DNA of 41,029 nt from Candidatus Hydrogenedentota bacterium (GTDB taxonomy: Bacteria; Hydrogenedentota; Hydrogenedentia; Hydrogenedentales; CAITNO01). Location of the stretch: positions 1-41,029 of the forward strand of contig JAAYBR010000016.1 of assembly GCA_012730045.1 (NCBI GenBank), in the 5' to 3' direction. Below, in pieces: positions 5,476 through 41,029 of this stretch. The notes beneath the pieces were generated by a model. It ran no database searches, was not told the origin of the DNA, and worked only from the letters and a program-made list of their open reading frames with translations. The translations under genes were made by a program, and so were the position numbers. How positions within the stretch are numbered: the stretch's first letter is position 1; every line of letters begins with the position of its first letter.

Positions 5476-5569
5476 GGTCCCGCTCCTTTCGCGCGCCCGC
5501 CGGGCGGCGACGCCGCCCCATTGTATGCCCCGGGCGCCGTTTCTTCCAACCGCCCGCCTCGCGCCCAAG

Positions 5570-5752
5570 ATCGCCGAATAAGCGACGGCGCATGCGTTCG
5601 CTCCAGGGCGCGGCAAGCGGCGCCCCTACATGCGCGCGCCGCGGGCATACGCGAAGAGACCGGGCGTTCCGCCCGTAGCGGCGCCCCTACGGGTGCATAC
5701 CCGAGGCGTGGGCAGGTAGGGGCGCCGCTTGCTGCGCCCTCTTCGCATGCTC
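5570..5752 (-). repeat. dispersed palindromic element, copy A (inverted relative to copy B)
   Basis: This fills most of the 365-base gap between the minus-strand glycosidase-like gene and ettA, which holds no gene that I can see. Two 25-base arms, 5605-5629 and 5716-5740, are inverted repeats with one mismatch (core GGCGCCGCTTG). A partial extra copy of the arm lies at about 5678-5692. The outer flank 5570-5604, read on the minus strand, matches the outer flank of copy B (13187-13222), including CCGTCGCTTAT and the GATCGCCG-type end. A fragment of the same arm recurs near 22806. Such an element could form a long hairpin; mobility is inferred only from its dispersal. Confidence 0.8.
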
Positions 5753-11498: not shown

Positions 11499-11561
11499 CA
11501 CGCGCCTGAGACGTTCCGACAAGGGATTGCCGCGCTGACCCAGAGCGCGGACCGGGGCGTT

Positions 11562-11646
11562 GGCGGGCACGAGATTGCTTCGCTTCGCTCGCAATGACGG
11601 GCGTTTTCAGTCATTGCGAGCGAAGCGAAGCAATCTCGTGCCCGCC
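11562..11646. repeat. perfect long inverted repeat (37-bp arms, 11-bp loop)
   Basis: Arms 11562-11598 and 11610-11646 are exact reverse complements, separated by GGGCGTTTTCA. The arms contain GCGAGCGAAGCGAAGCAAT, a word seen in dispersed palindromes of many bacteria. A degenerate third piece, GAGCGAAGCGAAGCCGTCTC, follows at about 11670-11689. The element lies in the 405-base gap between the propeller protein gene and asd; apart from this repeat and the asd promoter and leader, that gap holds nothing else I can recognise. Transcribed, it would form a very stable hairpin and might stop read-through into asd. Confidence 0.9.
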
Positions 11647-11779
11647 ACGACCCCGACTACACCCGTCAGGGCGAGCGAAGCGAAGCCGTCTCTTGACCGC
11701 CGCGCCTGCACCTCGCACGGCCCGGCGCCCGTGGCCCCGGCAACCGGGGTCTTTTTCGATTTTCTCCCCTGAAATGGGG

Positions 11780-12966: not shown

Positions 12967-12973
12967 CCCCCTG

Positions 12974-13222
12974 ATCGCCGGATAAGGCGGGGGACGGGAT
13001 CAGGTGCGTTATGTGAACGCGCAGGGGAAGGCGCGCTGTCGTGAAAGGGATGCACCTCACCTACCGGGTGAGACGGTCCTGCCGGGAAAGAAGAGGGCGC
13101 GGCAAGCGGCGCCCCCACATGCGTGAACCGGGGCCCACGCAACAGCACGGAATCCCCGCCCGTAGGGGCGCCGCTTGCCGCGCCCTGGAGCGGACACATA
13201 GGCCGTCGCTTATCCGGCAATC
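12974..13222 (+). repeat. dispersed palindromic element, copy B, plus flanking sequence
   Basis: The gap from the asd terminator to the marR promoter has no gene. Arms 13094-13118 and 13162-13186 are inverted repeats with one mismatch and are nearly identical to those of copy A at 5605-5740, in the opposite orientation. The conserved outer flank 13187-13222 contains CCGTCGCTTATCCGG. A related end word, GATCGCCGGATAAG, occurs at 12974 and again inside the large repeats near 38836 and 40736. Core homology with copy A covers about 13085-13222; the remainder (12974-13084) has no match that I see apart from that word. Confidence 0.8.
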
Positions 13223-13240
13223 CGGGCCTCCCCCTACCGC

Positions 13241-19019: not shown

Positions 19020-19083
19020 ACATGGATGGACAGGATGGGCAGGATAAGAACAAATCCTGTTTATCCTGTCCGTTCCTATTCAT
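19020..19083. repeat. hairpin-forming direct repeat, copy 1
   Basis: This is one of two near-identical 64-base units (the other is 19253-19316) in the 449-base gap between the oxidoreductase gene and rhaA. Each unit can fold on itself: GGACAGGAT near the start pairs with ATCCTGTCC near the end around an AAGAACAAATCCT-type loop. AGGATA/TATCCT repeat words of this sort are widespread between bacterial genes. No gene is convincing in the gap; the open frames here merely translate the repeat. Confidence 0.75.
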
Positions 19084-19105
19084 GCGCCCCCGCACCCCGG
19101 ACAGG

Positions 19106-19252: not shown

Positions 19253-19316
19253 ACATGGATGGACAGGATGGGCAGGATAAGAACAAATCCTATTTATCCT
19301 GTCCATCGGTGTTCAT
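19253..19316. repeat. hairpin-forming direct repeat, copy 2
   Basis: Second copy of the unit at 19020-19083; the first 50 bases differ at one position only. The last bases diverge into an ATCGGTGTTCAT word that recalls the palindrome at 8922-9032. It ends about 30 bases before the predicted rhaA promoter. Confidence 0.75.
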
Positions 19317-19347
19317 ACTCCCCCTCCCCCGCCGGTTCAGGGGGAAA

Positions 19348-36612: not shown

Positions 36613-38700
36613 TCACCCCCCGTGGCCGCCGGTTCCCGGCCCGTCCCCCAGCATGACCGCAACCATGCGCAGCAGGTCCTCGCGCCCGTAGGGTTTCCCG
36701 AGAAACCAGGTGCCGGGGCCCGGATCCCCCCCGCAGGCCTGCCCCGCCGTGAAATAGCCGCTCACGATCAGAAGCCTCAGGCCGGGGTTGACCGCGCGGA
36801 GCCGGGAAATGTACTGGGCCGGGGGCATGCCGGGCATGTTCAGGTTGCTGACCACCGCCGCGGTTTCCCGTCCCTTCTCCGCGTACAGCGCCAGGGCCTC
36901 CTCGCTGTCCCGCGCCGTGAGCACCGCGTAGCCGCCCGACTCCAGGAACGCGGTGTTGATGGCAAGCAGCTCCGGTTCGTCCTCCACCAGCAGCAGGGTC
37001 TCCCCGCCCCGCCGCAGCGCGTCCGGAACGGGCTTCGGCTGGGGTTCGGGAAGCGACTGGGCCGGCAGCGCGGGCAGCAGAATCTCGAAACGGGCCCCCT
37101 CCCCGGGCGCGCTGCGGCAGAAGATGTGCCCCCCGTGGTCCGTCACAATCTCGCGCGCCATGTACAGCCCAAGCCCGGTTCCCTGCCCCTCGGCCCTGGT
37201 GGTGTAGAAGGACTCGAAAATGCGGCCCATCTGCTCCGGAGCCATGCCGCACCCCGTGTCGGACACGCTGACCCGGACCCACTCGCCCTGCAATGGCACG
37301 CCGCAGCAGGGGCAGGCTTGCCCCCCGCGCACGGTGTTCTCGGTGGTGACCGAAAGACAGCCGGAACCCCGCATCGCGTCCACCGCGTTGTTCGCCAGGT
37401 TCATCAGAATCTGGTCAATCTGGTTGGGGTCGGCGCTCACCGGCCACAGGCCGTCCGCCAGACGGAACTCCAGCCGGATGGAGCGCGGCAGGATCCGGCG
37501 CCACACTTCCCCAACATCCGCAATCTCACGGTTCAGGGAAACGGGCCTGTGGCGGGTCGCCGTCCGCCGGTTGAACGCGGCGATCTGGCGCACCAGCCGG
37601 CGCGCCCGTGCGGTCGCGTCCAGGATCTGCCCGATTTCGGGCCGGGGATCCCGCCCCTCCCCGCACCGGTCCGCCGCCAGCTCCGCATACCCCAGGATCA
37701 CGCCCAGCACGTTGTTGAAGTCGTGGGCAATCCCGCCCGCCAGCAGCCCCACGGCCTCCATCTTCTGCGCCTGGAGCAGCTGGAGCTCCAGCTGCTTGCG
37801 CTCCGTAATGTCCTGCAGCACCCCCGTGACCGCCACGCACGCCCCATCCCCATCAGACTCCGCCTCCGACCGGTTATACACCCAGCGCGTCTCTTTCCGG
37901 TCCGCTGTGAGAATCCGAAATTCGGTGTCCAGCGGGACACCCGTCAGGGCGGCCGCCCAGGCGGCGTCCACCCGCTCCCGGTCCTCCGGATGGGTCAGGT
38001 CGAGCATGTGCTGCGGGGTGACGTCCGTCCCCTCGGCATACCCGGTGATCTGGAAGGTCTTGGCGGAACAGCGCAGCCTTTCCGTCCCCAGGTCGTAATG
38101 CCAGCTCCCGATGCGGGCCACCTCCTGCGCCCGGCGCAGGTGCTCCTCCGTGTCCCGGAGCGCGTGCGCCGTGCGCCGCTGCTCCGTGACGTCCCGCACC
38201 AGCCCCTCCAGCGCCGCCGGGCGTCCCTGCGCATCGTTCACCACCCGGACATGGGGCTTCATCCACCGGATGTCCCCGTCCTTCGTGAACGCGCGAAACT
38301 CTTTCTCCGTGGGCGTGCAGCCCCGCCCCGAAACGATGCCCTCCCACTGCCGGAAGAACTCCTGGTGGTGGTCCGGATGCAGCACCTGTAGTGCCGACGC
38401 CGGATTGGAAAAAAGCTCCTCGCGGCTGCATTCGTAGTAGGCGATCGCGGCGCGGTTGAGGTAGATGTGGTTCCCCGCGGGCACAGCCATCCGGAAGACG
38501 ACATTCTCCGTGTGCTCCGCAAACCACTCGAAGCGCTCCTCACCCTCCGCGAGACGGCGCTCCAGCTCCGCACGCTCCGCGGCTGCGTCCTCCGCCGCGC
38601 ACCCTGCCTCCTCCCGCATGCGGCGCGCCCGCGCATGCTGCCGGACGTTGCACAATAGTGAACATCCCAGCAGAACCCCTATCGCCAGCGTCATGTACAC
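36613..38700 (-). CDS. hybrid PAS-PAS histidine kinase with Asn-substituted receiver
   Basis: A 695-residue sensor kinase. One N-terminal hydrophobic segment (~4-18) anchors it; a short coiled coil (~25-55) leads to two PAS domains (~55-175 and ~185-305, each ending in the DVTEQRR or DITERKQ type junction). HisKA follows with phosphoacceptor His326 in GGIAHDFNNVLGV, then an HATPase domain (N box LANNAVDAM, DTGCGMAPEQ, GTGLGL) containing a CPCCG insert (~463-467). The C-terminal receiver (~567-685) has VEDE acidic residues (573-574) and Lys669 in GKP, but the phosphoacceptor Asp is replaced by Asn619 (VSNLNMPGM; codon AAC). The GTG at 38700 fits AGAGGG about five bases upstream; ATG 38694 is an alternative. 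Its signal and output are unknown. A repeat with an extended -10 element lies upstream. Confidence 0.9.
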   Translation of the reverse strand: MYMTLAIGVLLGCSLLCNVRQHARARRMREEAGCAAEDAAAERAELERRLAEGEERFEWFAEHTENVVFRMAVPAGNHIYLNRAAIAYYECSREELFSNPASALQVLHPDHHQEFFRQWEGIVSGRGCTPTEKEFRAFTKDGDIRWMKPHVRVVNDAQGRPAALEGLVRDVTEQRRTAHALRDTEEHLRRAQEVARIGSWHYDLGTERLRCSAKTFQITGYAEGTDVTPQHMLDLTHPEDRERVDAAWAAALTGVPLDTEFRILTADRKETRWVYNRSEAESDGDGACVAVTGVLQDITERKQLELQLLQAQKMEAVGLLAGGIAHDFNNVLGVILGYAELAADRCGEGRDPRPEIGQILDATARARRLVRQIAAFNRRTATRHRPVSLNREIADVGEVWRRILPRSIRLEFRLADGLWPVSADPNQIDQILMNLANNAVDAMRGSGCLSVTTENTVRGGQACPCCGVPLQGEWVRVSVSDTGCGMAPEQMGRIFESFYTTRAEGQGTGLGLYMAREIVTDHGGHIFCRSAPGEGARFEILLPALPAQSLPEPQPKPVPDALRRGGETLLLVEDEPELLAINTAFLESGGYAVLTARDSEEALALYAEKGRETAAVVSNLNMPGMPPAQYISRLRAVNPGLRLLIVSGYFTAGQACGGDPGPGTWFLGKPYGREDLLRMVAVMLGDGPGTGGHGG

Positions 38701-38769
38701 CGCTTCCCTCTCCTGTGTCGCCGAGAATGTCGGCGGCCGCGGTCTAATTAAACACCCCCCCTGTCCGTT

Positions 38770-38778
38770 AGTATACCA
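38770..38778 (-). promoter_or_regulatory. extended -10 upstream of the histidine kinase gene
   Basis: Read on the minus strand, TGGTATACT (38778 to 38770) is an extended -10 element with TG-N before TATACT. No clear -35 is present, as is usual for extended -10 promoters. Transcription from about 38763 would give a leader of about 60 bases before the GTG at 38700. The element is part of the direct repeat. Confidence 0.5.
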
Positions 38779-39002
38779 CTACTTGGCAAAAACAAGGAAC
38801 AATTCCTAGAAGCATGGAATACCGGACGGAAAGTCTGATCGCCGGATAAGGAACGGTCTCGGATGTGTTTGAGGCAGGGCACGCCCTTTGGGTCCGAGGT
38901 GACAGCGTCGGCGCCGTCACAAGTGCTCGTCCACCCGTGAAATGCGCAGAGTCCAGGGCTTTCCGACAAGAGGTTGCCGCGTCGGCCGGGGCGGCCTCCT
39001 CG

Positions 39003-39056
39003 CAATGACCGTGGAAATGCAAGTCATTGCAATGACCGTGGAAATGCAAGTCATTG
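39003..39056. repeat. 27-bp tandem units, two copies
   Basis: Two adjacent identical 27-base units (39003-39029 and 39030-39056), each starting CAATGAC and ending GTCATTG so that each can fold into a small hairpin around CGTGGAAATGCAA. They lie within the palindromic end of repeat copy 1. The same unit occurs four times in copy 2. Confidence 0.9.
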
Positions 39057-39155
39057 CGAAGGAGCGCAGCGACTGAAGCAACCTCGTTCTCGCTCTGGCG
39101 TCGGTTCTCACGCCCTCTTATCCGGCGGCCAGGGGAACATCCGCGGCTTCCCTCC

Positions 39156-39248
39156 CTATTTCTTCCCCGCTTTTCTGCCGCGCGCTGCGGACTCCTTCTT
39201 CCGGCACCCTCCCGACAGCGCCAACGCCGCCGCCAGAACGAAAAACAC
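39156..39248 (-). CDS. possible 30-residue lipoprotein-like peptide
   Basis: A short minus-strand frame from GTG 39248 to TAG 39156 encodes a hydrophobic stretch, MFFVLAAALALSGGC, followed by a Lys/Arg-rich tail. It resembles the entericidin or short-lipoprotein pattern, and its codons prefer G or C in third position. The lipobox is imperfect (LSGGC) and no good ribosome site is visible. It is 90 bases downstream of the M23 gene on the same strand. It may well be chance. Confidence 0.2.
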   Translation of the reverse strand: MFFVLAAALALSGGCRKKESAARGRKAGKK

Positions 39249-39284
39249 CCCAACCCGTCCGGCAGTTTAAAACGCGCTCATCCT

Positions 39285-39338
39285 ACCCCCGCGGGGCCGT
39301 TTTATCAAGACGTTTTTCCGCGCTGAAACCGCGGGGGT
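39285..39338 (-). terminator. possible stem-loop at the M23 gene end
   Basis: ACCCCCGCGG at 39285-39294 is inverted exactly as CCGCGGGGGT at 39329-39338, which touches the M23 stop codon; 34 bases separate the arms. On the minus strand the loop contains AAAAAC and AAAAC rather than a U-run after the stem, so it is not a canonical terminator. Confidence 0.35.
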
Positions 39339-40510
39339 CAATCAAGCACCACCACCATGCCGTTAGAGAAAAACTCCCCGGCGCGCGGTTCCGGCGTCTC
39401 CCTGGGCGTCCAGGAGAAGTCCCGGGCCCACCCCGCAAAATCGGAGTCGTCACTGGTCCAATAGGGGAAGTCGGCCTGCCAGACGAAGTGGTCGGTCACA
39501 AAGGGCACCCCCTGGCTCCCGAAAAGGTCCAGACCGTCCGCCAAGTGAAAGTGCAGGTGGGGCAGATCGGAGTTCCCCGAGTTGCCCATGAGCGCCAACA
39601 CCTGGCCGGCGGCCACCTCGTCGCCCTCCCGCACCAGAATGCTCCCCGGAATGCAGTGACCGTAGAACGCATAGATATTTTCGGCGATCTGAAGCACCAC
39701 TAGGTTTCCCGCGATGGTCTCATCGGTGATCTCAATGTCCCGATCCGGCGGGGTCTGGTTGTCTGGAACGCCCTCCACCACCTTCACGACCGTGCCCGCA
39801 GCGACCGCCAGCAACTCCTGCCTGTACCCGGCGTAGCTCTCCAGGCCGGGGGCGGTTCCGCCGGCCATGGTGCCCTGTTCGGTGAGACGCACCCAGTCAA
39901 TGGCGAAACGCTGGGATATGAAGGGCTTCCCGTCCACCATCACGATGCCCTTCCGGTGGTGCGTGGACGGGGCAAGGCTCTCGGAGGCGGCCATGCGGTC
40001 GCCGCGCATGGGCGGCCCAATCACCGGCAGGGCGCCGTCCCGGACACCGGCGCGCCCTCCGCGCACCGAAAAAGCGTCCCCTCGCGGGAATGTGCCCCCG
40101 GTAAAGTGAAACCTGTGGGATATTTTTTCGGGAACCGCCTCATCTTGCCCCAGCAAGATGGAGAAATAAAGCACAGGCTGCGTGCAACGGACAGCCTGGG
40201 CTTTTGCCGGGGCGGCCTGGGGCAGGGCAAGCACGGCCTGCGCCGTGTAGTCCTCGGATAGGAGCTCCGCAGCCGTGTAGGTGCGCAGCAGGTCGCCATC
40301 GCCAAACACCTCCACCTCCTGCAACTCCAGCCCGGCGGCCGGATAATCGGACAGGAGCACCTCATAGACCAGTGAGGTCCCGGCGGCCGTTGGCACGGCC
40401 CAGGGGGGGGTTACCACCTGCATGCACAGGGAGTCCGTGCAGCATCCGGAAAGGACTGCGGCCGAGACTGCGGCAATCCCCAGTCCCCACGCCATCCGTG
40501 TGCATCGCAT
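39338..40510 (-). CDS. M23-like (LytM-fold) lipoprotein
   Basis: A 390-residue lipoprotein with a C-terminal M23/LytM-fold domain; active members cut peptidoglycan cross-links. The signal sequence ends in the lipobox AVLSGCC (Cys at 23). Residues ~30-140 form a beta-rich N-terminal part. The M23 domain (~185-335) has YGHCIPGSILVREGDEVAAG, LMGNSGNSDLPHLHFHL and therefore the HxH pair (His318, His320). The first zinc-ligand motif, normally HxxxD, reads RFAID (Arg201-Asp205), so the metal site looks altered. ATG 40510 is supported by AAGGAGG seven bases upstream; an in-frame frame extends further but lacks such a site. Direct-repeat copies lie upstream and downstream of the gene. Confidence 0.88.
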   Translation of the reverse strand: MRCTRMAWGLGIAAVSAAVLSGCCTDSLCMQVVTPPWAVPTAAGTSLVYEVLLSDYPAAGLELQEVEVFGDGDLLRTYTAAELLSEDYTAQAVLALPQAAPAKAQAVRCTQPVLYFSILLGQDEAVPEKISHRFHFTGGTFPRGDAFSVRGGRAGVRDGALPVIGPPMRGDRMAASESLAPSTHHRKGIVMVDGKPFISQRFAIDWVRLTEQGTMAGGTAPGLESYAGYRQELLAVAAGTVVKVVEGVPDNQTPPDRDIEITDETIAGNLVVLQIAENIYAFYGHCIPGSILVREGDEVAAGQVLALMGNSGNSDLPHLHFHLADGLDLFGSQGVPFVTDHFVWQADFPYWTSDDSDFAGWARDFSWTPRETPEPRAGEFFSNGMVVVLD

Positions 40511-40667
40511 CGCCCGCCCTCCTTGTTCCGGGACAACGGGAAGACGGGGGGATTCCCGCATCCCGGCGTTCCTGAAGGGTGTTCTAGCACGACCGGCGAA
40601 AAATGTCAACCCAAACGAAAATCATGGGGGCGGCCGCGGTCCAATTTAACACCCCCCCCTGTCCGTT

Positions 40668-40676
40668 AGTATGCCA
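40668..40676 (-). promoter_or_regulatory. extended -10 upstream of the M23 gene
   Basis: The counterpart of the kinase promoter reads TGGCATACT on the minus strand (40676 to 40668), one base away from the copy 1 version. Transcription from about 40661 would give a leader of about 150 bases before ATG 40510. Confidence 0.4.
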
Positions 40677-40900
40677 CTACTCGGCAAAAACAAGGGATAA
40701 TTCCTAGAAGCATGGAATATCGGACGGAACATCTGATCGCCGGATAAGGAACGGTCGCGGATGTGTTTGAGGCAGGGCACGCCCTTTGGGTTCGCGGTGA
40801 CAGCGTCGGCGCCGTCACAAGTGCTCGTCCACCCGTGAAATGCGCAGAGTCCAGGGCTTTCCGACAAGAGATTGCCGCGTCGGCCGGGGCGGCCGCCTCG

Positions 40901-41008
40901 CAATGACCGTGGAAATGCAAGTCATTGCAATGACCGTGGAAATGCGCGTCATTGCAATGACCGTGGAAATGCGCGTCATTGCAATGACCGTGGAAATGCG
41001 CGTCATTG
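40901..41008. repeat. 27-bp tandem units, four copies
   Basis: Four head-to-tail 27-base units (starts 40901, 40928, 40955, 40982). The first has AAGTCATTG at its end, the other three GCGTCATTG. Each has inverted CAATGAC and GTCATTG ends. Copy 1 of the surrounding repeat has only two, so the array has expanded or contracted by whole units. Confidence 0.92.
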
Positions 41009-41029
41009 CGAAGGAGCGCAGCGACTGAA

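Follow-up and report, generated by a model that had tools for sequence, protein, structure and literature searches.

Duplication of the uvrA-kinase spacer around an M23 lipoprotein gene in an uncultured Hydrogenedentota bacterium

A duplicated spacer between uvrA and a histidine kinase gene

In the Candidatus Hydrogenedentota assembly GCA_012730045.1, the spacer between uvrA and a histidine kinase gene was most probably duplicated along with the gain of one gene, coding for an M23 metallopeptidase lipoprotein, rather than being a control cassette that roams the genome. The window analysed was the whole of one contig (C16, JAAYBR010000016.1, 41,029 nucleotides). It held two direct copies of a repeat (R) in one orientation, copy 1 upstream of a gene for a PAS-PAS-histidine kinase with a receiver domain (36613-38700, minus strand, identified by Pfam) and copy 2 upstream of the M23 gene. 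The preliminary description had reported a direct repeat of about 95% identity, in the same orientation before both genes, and this was borne out: 433 of 456 aligned bases were identical (95.0%, 38732-39187 against the partner copy), a core of 300 bp aligned without gaps at 95%, and the E value for copy 2 was 5.6e-145, far past chance. Counted within the window up to the common ...GACTGAA, copy 1 covered 38732-39077 (346 bp) and copy 2 40629-41029 (401 bp), and the difference of 55 was, as had also been described, two 27-bp units plus one C. The full repeat delimited by BLAST ran to 39197 in copy 1 and, in copy 2, on into contig C122 as far as base 209, giving lengths of 466 and 521 bp, again 55 apart. 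Read along the minus strand, R was composite: the final 13 uvrA codons were followed by a MITE-like fold-back element, and this in turn by 104 bp that carry the extended -10 of the kinase. The 27-bp units, situated in the loop of the MITE-like element, numbered one in the sister species, two in copy 1 (39002-39057, found by TRF) and four in copy 2, the last being a count at a contig end where the assembler may have collapsed units.

The last 89 bases of the window were identical to the first 89 of C122, and the terminal 40-mer of the window occurred in the genome only at the ends of C16 and C122. C122 completed copy 2 and then entered uvrA (969 aa, with Pfam UvrA domains; stop codon at L037:168). 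With the two contigs joined on the strength of this overlap and of synteny, not of reads, the order along the minus strand was uvrA, copy 2 of R, M23, copy 1 of R with a uvrA tail at its outer edge, and kinase. That tail, a copy of the last 13 uvrA codons and the stop, was placed by alignment at 39156-39197 (minus strand), and 39150-39197 was 94% identical to C122:162-209. In the sister species, the only congeneric genome compared and a fragmented draft of 1350 contigs, a single contig (G001:C539) carried uvrA, one copy of R and the kinase gene, unbroken and in one direction. The kinase orthologue adjoining uvrA there was 84% identical over 128 aa; among named genomes, the best match to the kinase was in a Candidatus Hydrogenedentota MAG at 34% identity. 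The 1.4-kb segment between the two copies (39198-40628, minus strand) was missing at the sister's site, where the contig is continuous. A target that is single-copy in the sister thus stands here as long direct repeats on either side of an insert, and a relative has the empty site, both as expected of insertion with long target duplication.

Searched against its own and the sister genome, with 40 of 116 and 40 of 84 candidates scored, the inserted segment had no match better than E 9e-4 besides itself and the two uvrA ends. Downstream of the M23 gene, the list of open reading frames held a putative chimeric frame of 30 aa (39156-39248, minus strand), in which the uvrA tail follows a lipoprotein-signal-like start in the same frame (MFFVLAAALALSGGCRKKES-AARGRKAGKK); it is probably a by-product of the junction. 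A promoter-like site, TTGATA-17-TAGGAT, was present upstream of this frame at 39308-39280 of the window, one such site against 0.5 expected.

Origin of the M23 gene

The M23 gene (39338-40510, minus strand) encodes a metallopeptidase lipoprotein of 390 aa (Pfam PF01551, 51.4 bits; lipobox recognised by eye). No full-length match to it was found in the 67 other phylum genomes searched, sister included. At E <= 1e-12, the 68 genomes of that set (its own among them, all belonging to one order) returned four partial matches outside its own, all within residues 195-339, the catalytic region. At E <= 1e-8, matches appeared in 11 of 60 genomes, including its own and the sister's; the latter covered 58 residues of the catalytic domain (2.4e-9), with none in the sister at E <= 1e-12. 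A tblastn search returned 52 plasmid records, of which six covered at least 80% of the protein (81-89%) at 28-30% identity; the records covering most of it came from distant organisms (Mesorhizobium, Halalkalicoccus, Hymenobacter), and 32 of the 52 were predicted to be non-mobilizable. Phages gave three partial matches only, and none was confirmed in viral contigs. Third-position GC content was 0.80 in the M23 gene, compared with 0.88 in the kinase gene, 0.94 in that for aspartokinase and 0.95 in uvrA. Taken together, the scarcity of relatives in the phylum, the distant plasmid matches and the low GC3 point to horizontal acquisition of the gene, short of proof.

Proposed route of entry

We propose that the M23 segment entered by homologous recombination between uvrA and the kinase gene. 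Most simply, a DNA circle bearing M23 together with a related R would have integrated by one crossover, a route to which, within the wider reading of duplication with gene gain, we give a little less than an even chance; alternatively, a tandem duplication may have trapped the M23 segment. For the M23 insertion, neither an integrase nor a circular intermediate nor a donor locus came to light. Both flanking genes are intact because R spans the end of uvrA as well as the promoter region of the kinase: uvrA would have kept its 3' end, and copy 1 would supply the kinase with its old promoter. The MITE-like element would be an older resident of the spacer that was copied along with it. As DNA outside the element was copied on both sides, which its transposition alone would not achieve, the duplication did not arise by transposition of the element.

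An extension of this route, which we regard as unlikely, is that M23 can be reversibly excised from the locus, which would then be a gene cassette that maintains itself without a recombinase of its own. The 466-bp repeats, kept competent for recombination by their MITE-like core, would release an M23 circle with one R, and one crossover would suffice for this circle to integrate again at any uvrA-R-kinase locus. If so, the outer genes would be complete in either state and the kinase would always have its promoter.

Age and direction of the duplication

Copy 1 matched the sister's R at 396 of 426 bases and copy 2 at 394 of 427. Across 426 gap-free columns, 21 differences were unique to the sister, 12 to copy 2 and nine to copy 1, and the sister branch was the longest in 0.93 of 5000 bootstraps, a modest value that assumes no gene conversion. 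As the two copies resemble each other more than either resembles the sister's R, the comparison favours a duplication that postdates the species split.

It is also conceivable, though improbable in our judgement, that the order uvrA-R-M23-R-kinase was ancestral and that recombination between the R copies removed M23 from the sister. Deletions between direct repeats are to be expected, and the copies here have identical runs of up to 75 bp in common. Of 21 informative sites read from uvrA towards the kinase, the sister agreed with copy 2 at the first three and with copy 1 at the next eight, a pattern that a deletion hybrid would also give and that therefore weighs against a gain, as do the distance of the plasmid relatives of M23 and the prediction of non-mobilizable plasmids for 32 of the 52 records. 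The last 10 sites, on the kinase side, were mixed (six as copy 2, four as copy 1) and not hybrid-like. Against an ancestral M23 stand also the lack of a full-length match in those 67 phylum genomes and the greater similarity of the copies to each other than to the sister. We retain the reading of a spacer duplicated along with the gain of M23.

Promoters in and beside the repeat

The kinase-proximal part of copy 1 (38732-38835, minus strand, 104 bp) comprises the leader and promoter region of the kinase gene and contains an extended -10, TGGTATACT, at 38778-38770 on the minus strand. Its counterpart in copy 2 (40629-40733, minus strand) carries an altered -10, TGGCATACT, at 40676-40668, so that a minus-strand extended -10 does occur in both copies, as had been reported. 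The -10 of copy 2 lacks its first T, while copy 1 and the sister both read TATACT, and the surroundings of the -10 are likewise conserved in the sister. Such a departure from TATACT would be expected if the -10 of copy 2 were no longer needed. A TG-extended -10 of equal quality arose in 0.026 of 5000 mononucleotide shuffles of copy 1 and in 0.106 of 5000 of copy 2. Neither copy was strong as a -35/-10 pair, the best scores of 8 and 6 of 12 being reached in 0.37 and 1.0 of 1000 shuffles, respectively. That copy 1 holds the kinase promoter is plausible by virtue of conservation in the sister and not by statistics alone.

The M23 gene has a putative promoter-like site of its own outside the repeat (40581-40609, minus strand), between R and the start codon: TTGACA (40609-40604), 17 nt, and TAGAAC (40586-40581), with 10 of 12 matches. 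It did not appear in the general promoter scan because that scan demands T at the sixth position of the -10. In dinucleotide shuffles, a perfect -35 with at least four of six -10 matches occurred in 0 of 2000 and a score of 10 of 12 in 1 of 2000, figures that were computed post hoc with the site already seen. M23 may thus be transcribed mainly from its own promoter, with the promoter in copy 2 decaying.

When the part bearing the -10 (38732-38840) was searched alone, it had two real places in the genome, those of the two copies, with all five candidates scored; the other three matches were of 14 bases each, at E 5. In 60 genomes, its own included, it had one further place, in the sole other genome of the genus, and this was the site of the sister's orthologous kinase; the part was absent from the 58 relatives other than the sister. 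An exact 20-mer of the promoter part had no occurrence in named genomes.

The MITE-like element and its surroundings

The centre of R is a MITE-like element, recognised by paired terminal inverted repeats (TIRs), its predicted fold and its tandem repeats. In copy 1 it occupies 38836-39131, with inverted ends TGATCGCCGGATAAG and CTTATCCGGCGGCCA; in copy 2 it begins at 40734, runs to the end of the window at 41029 and continues into C122, where its right end lies at C122:129-143. The fold of the element (38838-39128) had a z score of -4.23. A 15-mer of the TIR with at most one mismatch was found at 50 places in the genome, against none for the reversed control. Searched with 38720-39140, the genome gave at least 53 match rows (40 of 191 first-look candidates scored), which were merged into 44 sites; among the rows listed, all but the two window copies began at query position 105 or later. 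The family therefore resembles MITEs in dispersal, in its terminal inverted repeats, of the type CCCTGATCGCCGGATAAG...CTTATCCGGCGATCAGGG with outer CCC/GGG discerned by eye, and in size: TIR pairs were sized at 30 TIR loci, and the loci examined included 14 TIR-bounded copies, whose lengths of 168-296 bp fall within the 50-500 bp of MITEs. No consistent direct repeat was visible by eye outside these 14 TIR pairs that could represent a target-site duplication. The sister genome gave 28 match rows, and of eight other genomes of the family, three had short core matches only and five had none. A literature search for Hydrogenedentota with MITE, or Hydrogenedentes with inverted repeat, found no publication, and the family is here described for the genus.

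As regards a possible link of the REP/RAYT kind, Y1_Tnp had five matches in the genome, none with a paired element nearby. One of the five Y1_Tnp genes (L216) and its sister counterpart (L217) were each followed, at a distance of about 390 bp, by a lone TIR-like end, CTTATCCGGCG, at about 2227-2238; a single end beside this gene in both species is a weak lead to a mobilising enzyme. Minus-strand frames of 84-161 aa cross the repeat, but protein coding seems unlikely: only eight of the 44 sites shared more than 40 bases with a called frame, and for one of these the frame was spurious. A search of 38600-41029 for known structured RNA gave one match, below the gathering score (E 0.97) and outside the repeat.

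Elsewhere in the window, a further MITE-like member of the TIR family described above, some 250 bp in length, lay at 12972-13223, with a GGGCGCGGCAAGCGGCGCCCC repeat in its interior. Another stretch, 5569-5744, is probably a further relative, having a TIR-like CGCCGAATAAG at 5572 and a 66-nt arm that is an inverted match to the end of the 12972-13223 element. A 46-nt inverted repeat with an 11-nt loop at 11553-11655, GATTGCTTCGCTTCGCTCGCAATGAC, resembled the GTCATTGC core of the element. A 78-nt direct repeat of the GGACAGGATGGGCAGGATAAGAACAAATCC type, 87% identical, lay at 19020-19097 and 19253-19330.

Orientation relative to neighbouring genes was assessed around the 44 merged sites with a gene caller based on codon usage. 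Three genes served as its seed, a fourth being left out on account of stops in its stretch, and it was retrained on window calls over 600 nt. As called, 20 sites lay in tandem gaps, 11 in divergent gaps and one in a convergent gap, and 12 had no called neighbour on one side. Copy 2 (C16:40733) had been miscalled as divergent through a spurious frame with a score of 0.9 and was recounted as tandem, giving 21 tandem, 10 divergent and one convergent. The element pointed with the genes in 10 of the 21 tandem gaps and against them in 11 (10 and nine without the two window copies), the sites not all being independent, as some are fragments and some are neighbours in one gap. The 10 divergent against one convergent are raw counts uncorrected for gap length.

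These counts bear on the proposal that R is a mobile or duplicated regulatory cassette spreading one promoter to several genes. Both copies do stand upstream of minus-strand genes with an extended -10 that, with its surroundings, is conserved in the sister; of that earlier proposal, the duplication holds. The mobile regulatory cassette is not supported: beyond these two, the genome has no copy of the part with the -10, and the 58 relatives other than the sister lack it, so that nowhere in the genome or the relatives searched did a promoter-bearing unit stand before three or more genes in one orientation. The element itself, which is what is dispersed, carries no such extended -10, this lying outside it, and disregards gene direction; further copies placed without regard to gene direction were what the preliminary description had named as speaking against its own idea. 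Its suggestion of separate genes under one control is doubtful, given the promoter-like site of M23 and the weakened -10 of copy 2, and we consider a promoter-spreading cassette very unlikely. A composite transposition, in which the two MITE-like elements that bracket M23 moved it as a unit, as published for other MITEs in the case of MITE-flanked integrons (in the part of PMC10969869 drawn on here), is most improbable, since the duplication reaches past the element on both sides into the uvrA tail and the kinase promoter region, which would not be copied that way, and the sister already has the element at the same site. On the reading that we prefer, of a spacer duplicated together with the gain of M23, two genes can come to "share" a promoter as a by-product of one gene gain and not through regulatory wiring.

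Comparison with known systems

Like the prokaryotic MITEs covered in the cited portion of PMC10969869, the element in the window is 250-300 bp long, has inverted ends, is intergenic and dispersed, and folds back strongly. It differs in that neither a target-site duplication nor a parent transposase was recognised, Y1_Tnp being the transposase searched for. Promoter-bearing MITEs such as Correia elements are known (same portion of PMC10969869), but here the -10 lies outside the element.

The locus also resembles the minimal mobile elements of Neisseria, as far as the sections consulted of PMC3898611 and PMC3082526 describe them, in being a whole-gene cassette between conserved genes, present or absent by genome, with an insert that has no visible recombinase, though the comparison on our side rests on two genomes. 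Those elements, according to the same sections, are defined by uptake through homologous recombination, with different cassettes per strain, and not by a duplicated intergenic repeat (PMC3898611, PMC3082526).

The event is of a known kind and neatly documented, with insertion with long target duplication and the sister's empty site now recorded together in little-studied uncultured bacteria. Insertion with long target duplication was reportedly described by Kobayashi's group for restriction-modification genes. In both cases a foreign gene block is bracketed by long direct copies of a sequence that the relative has once, and the genes on either side are intact. What sets the present locus apart is its insert, an M23 lipoprotein gene, and a duplicated target that includes a MITE-like element along with a promoter region.
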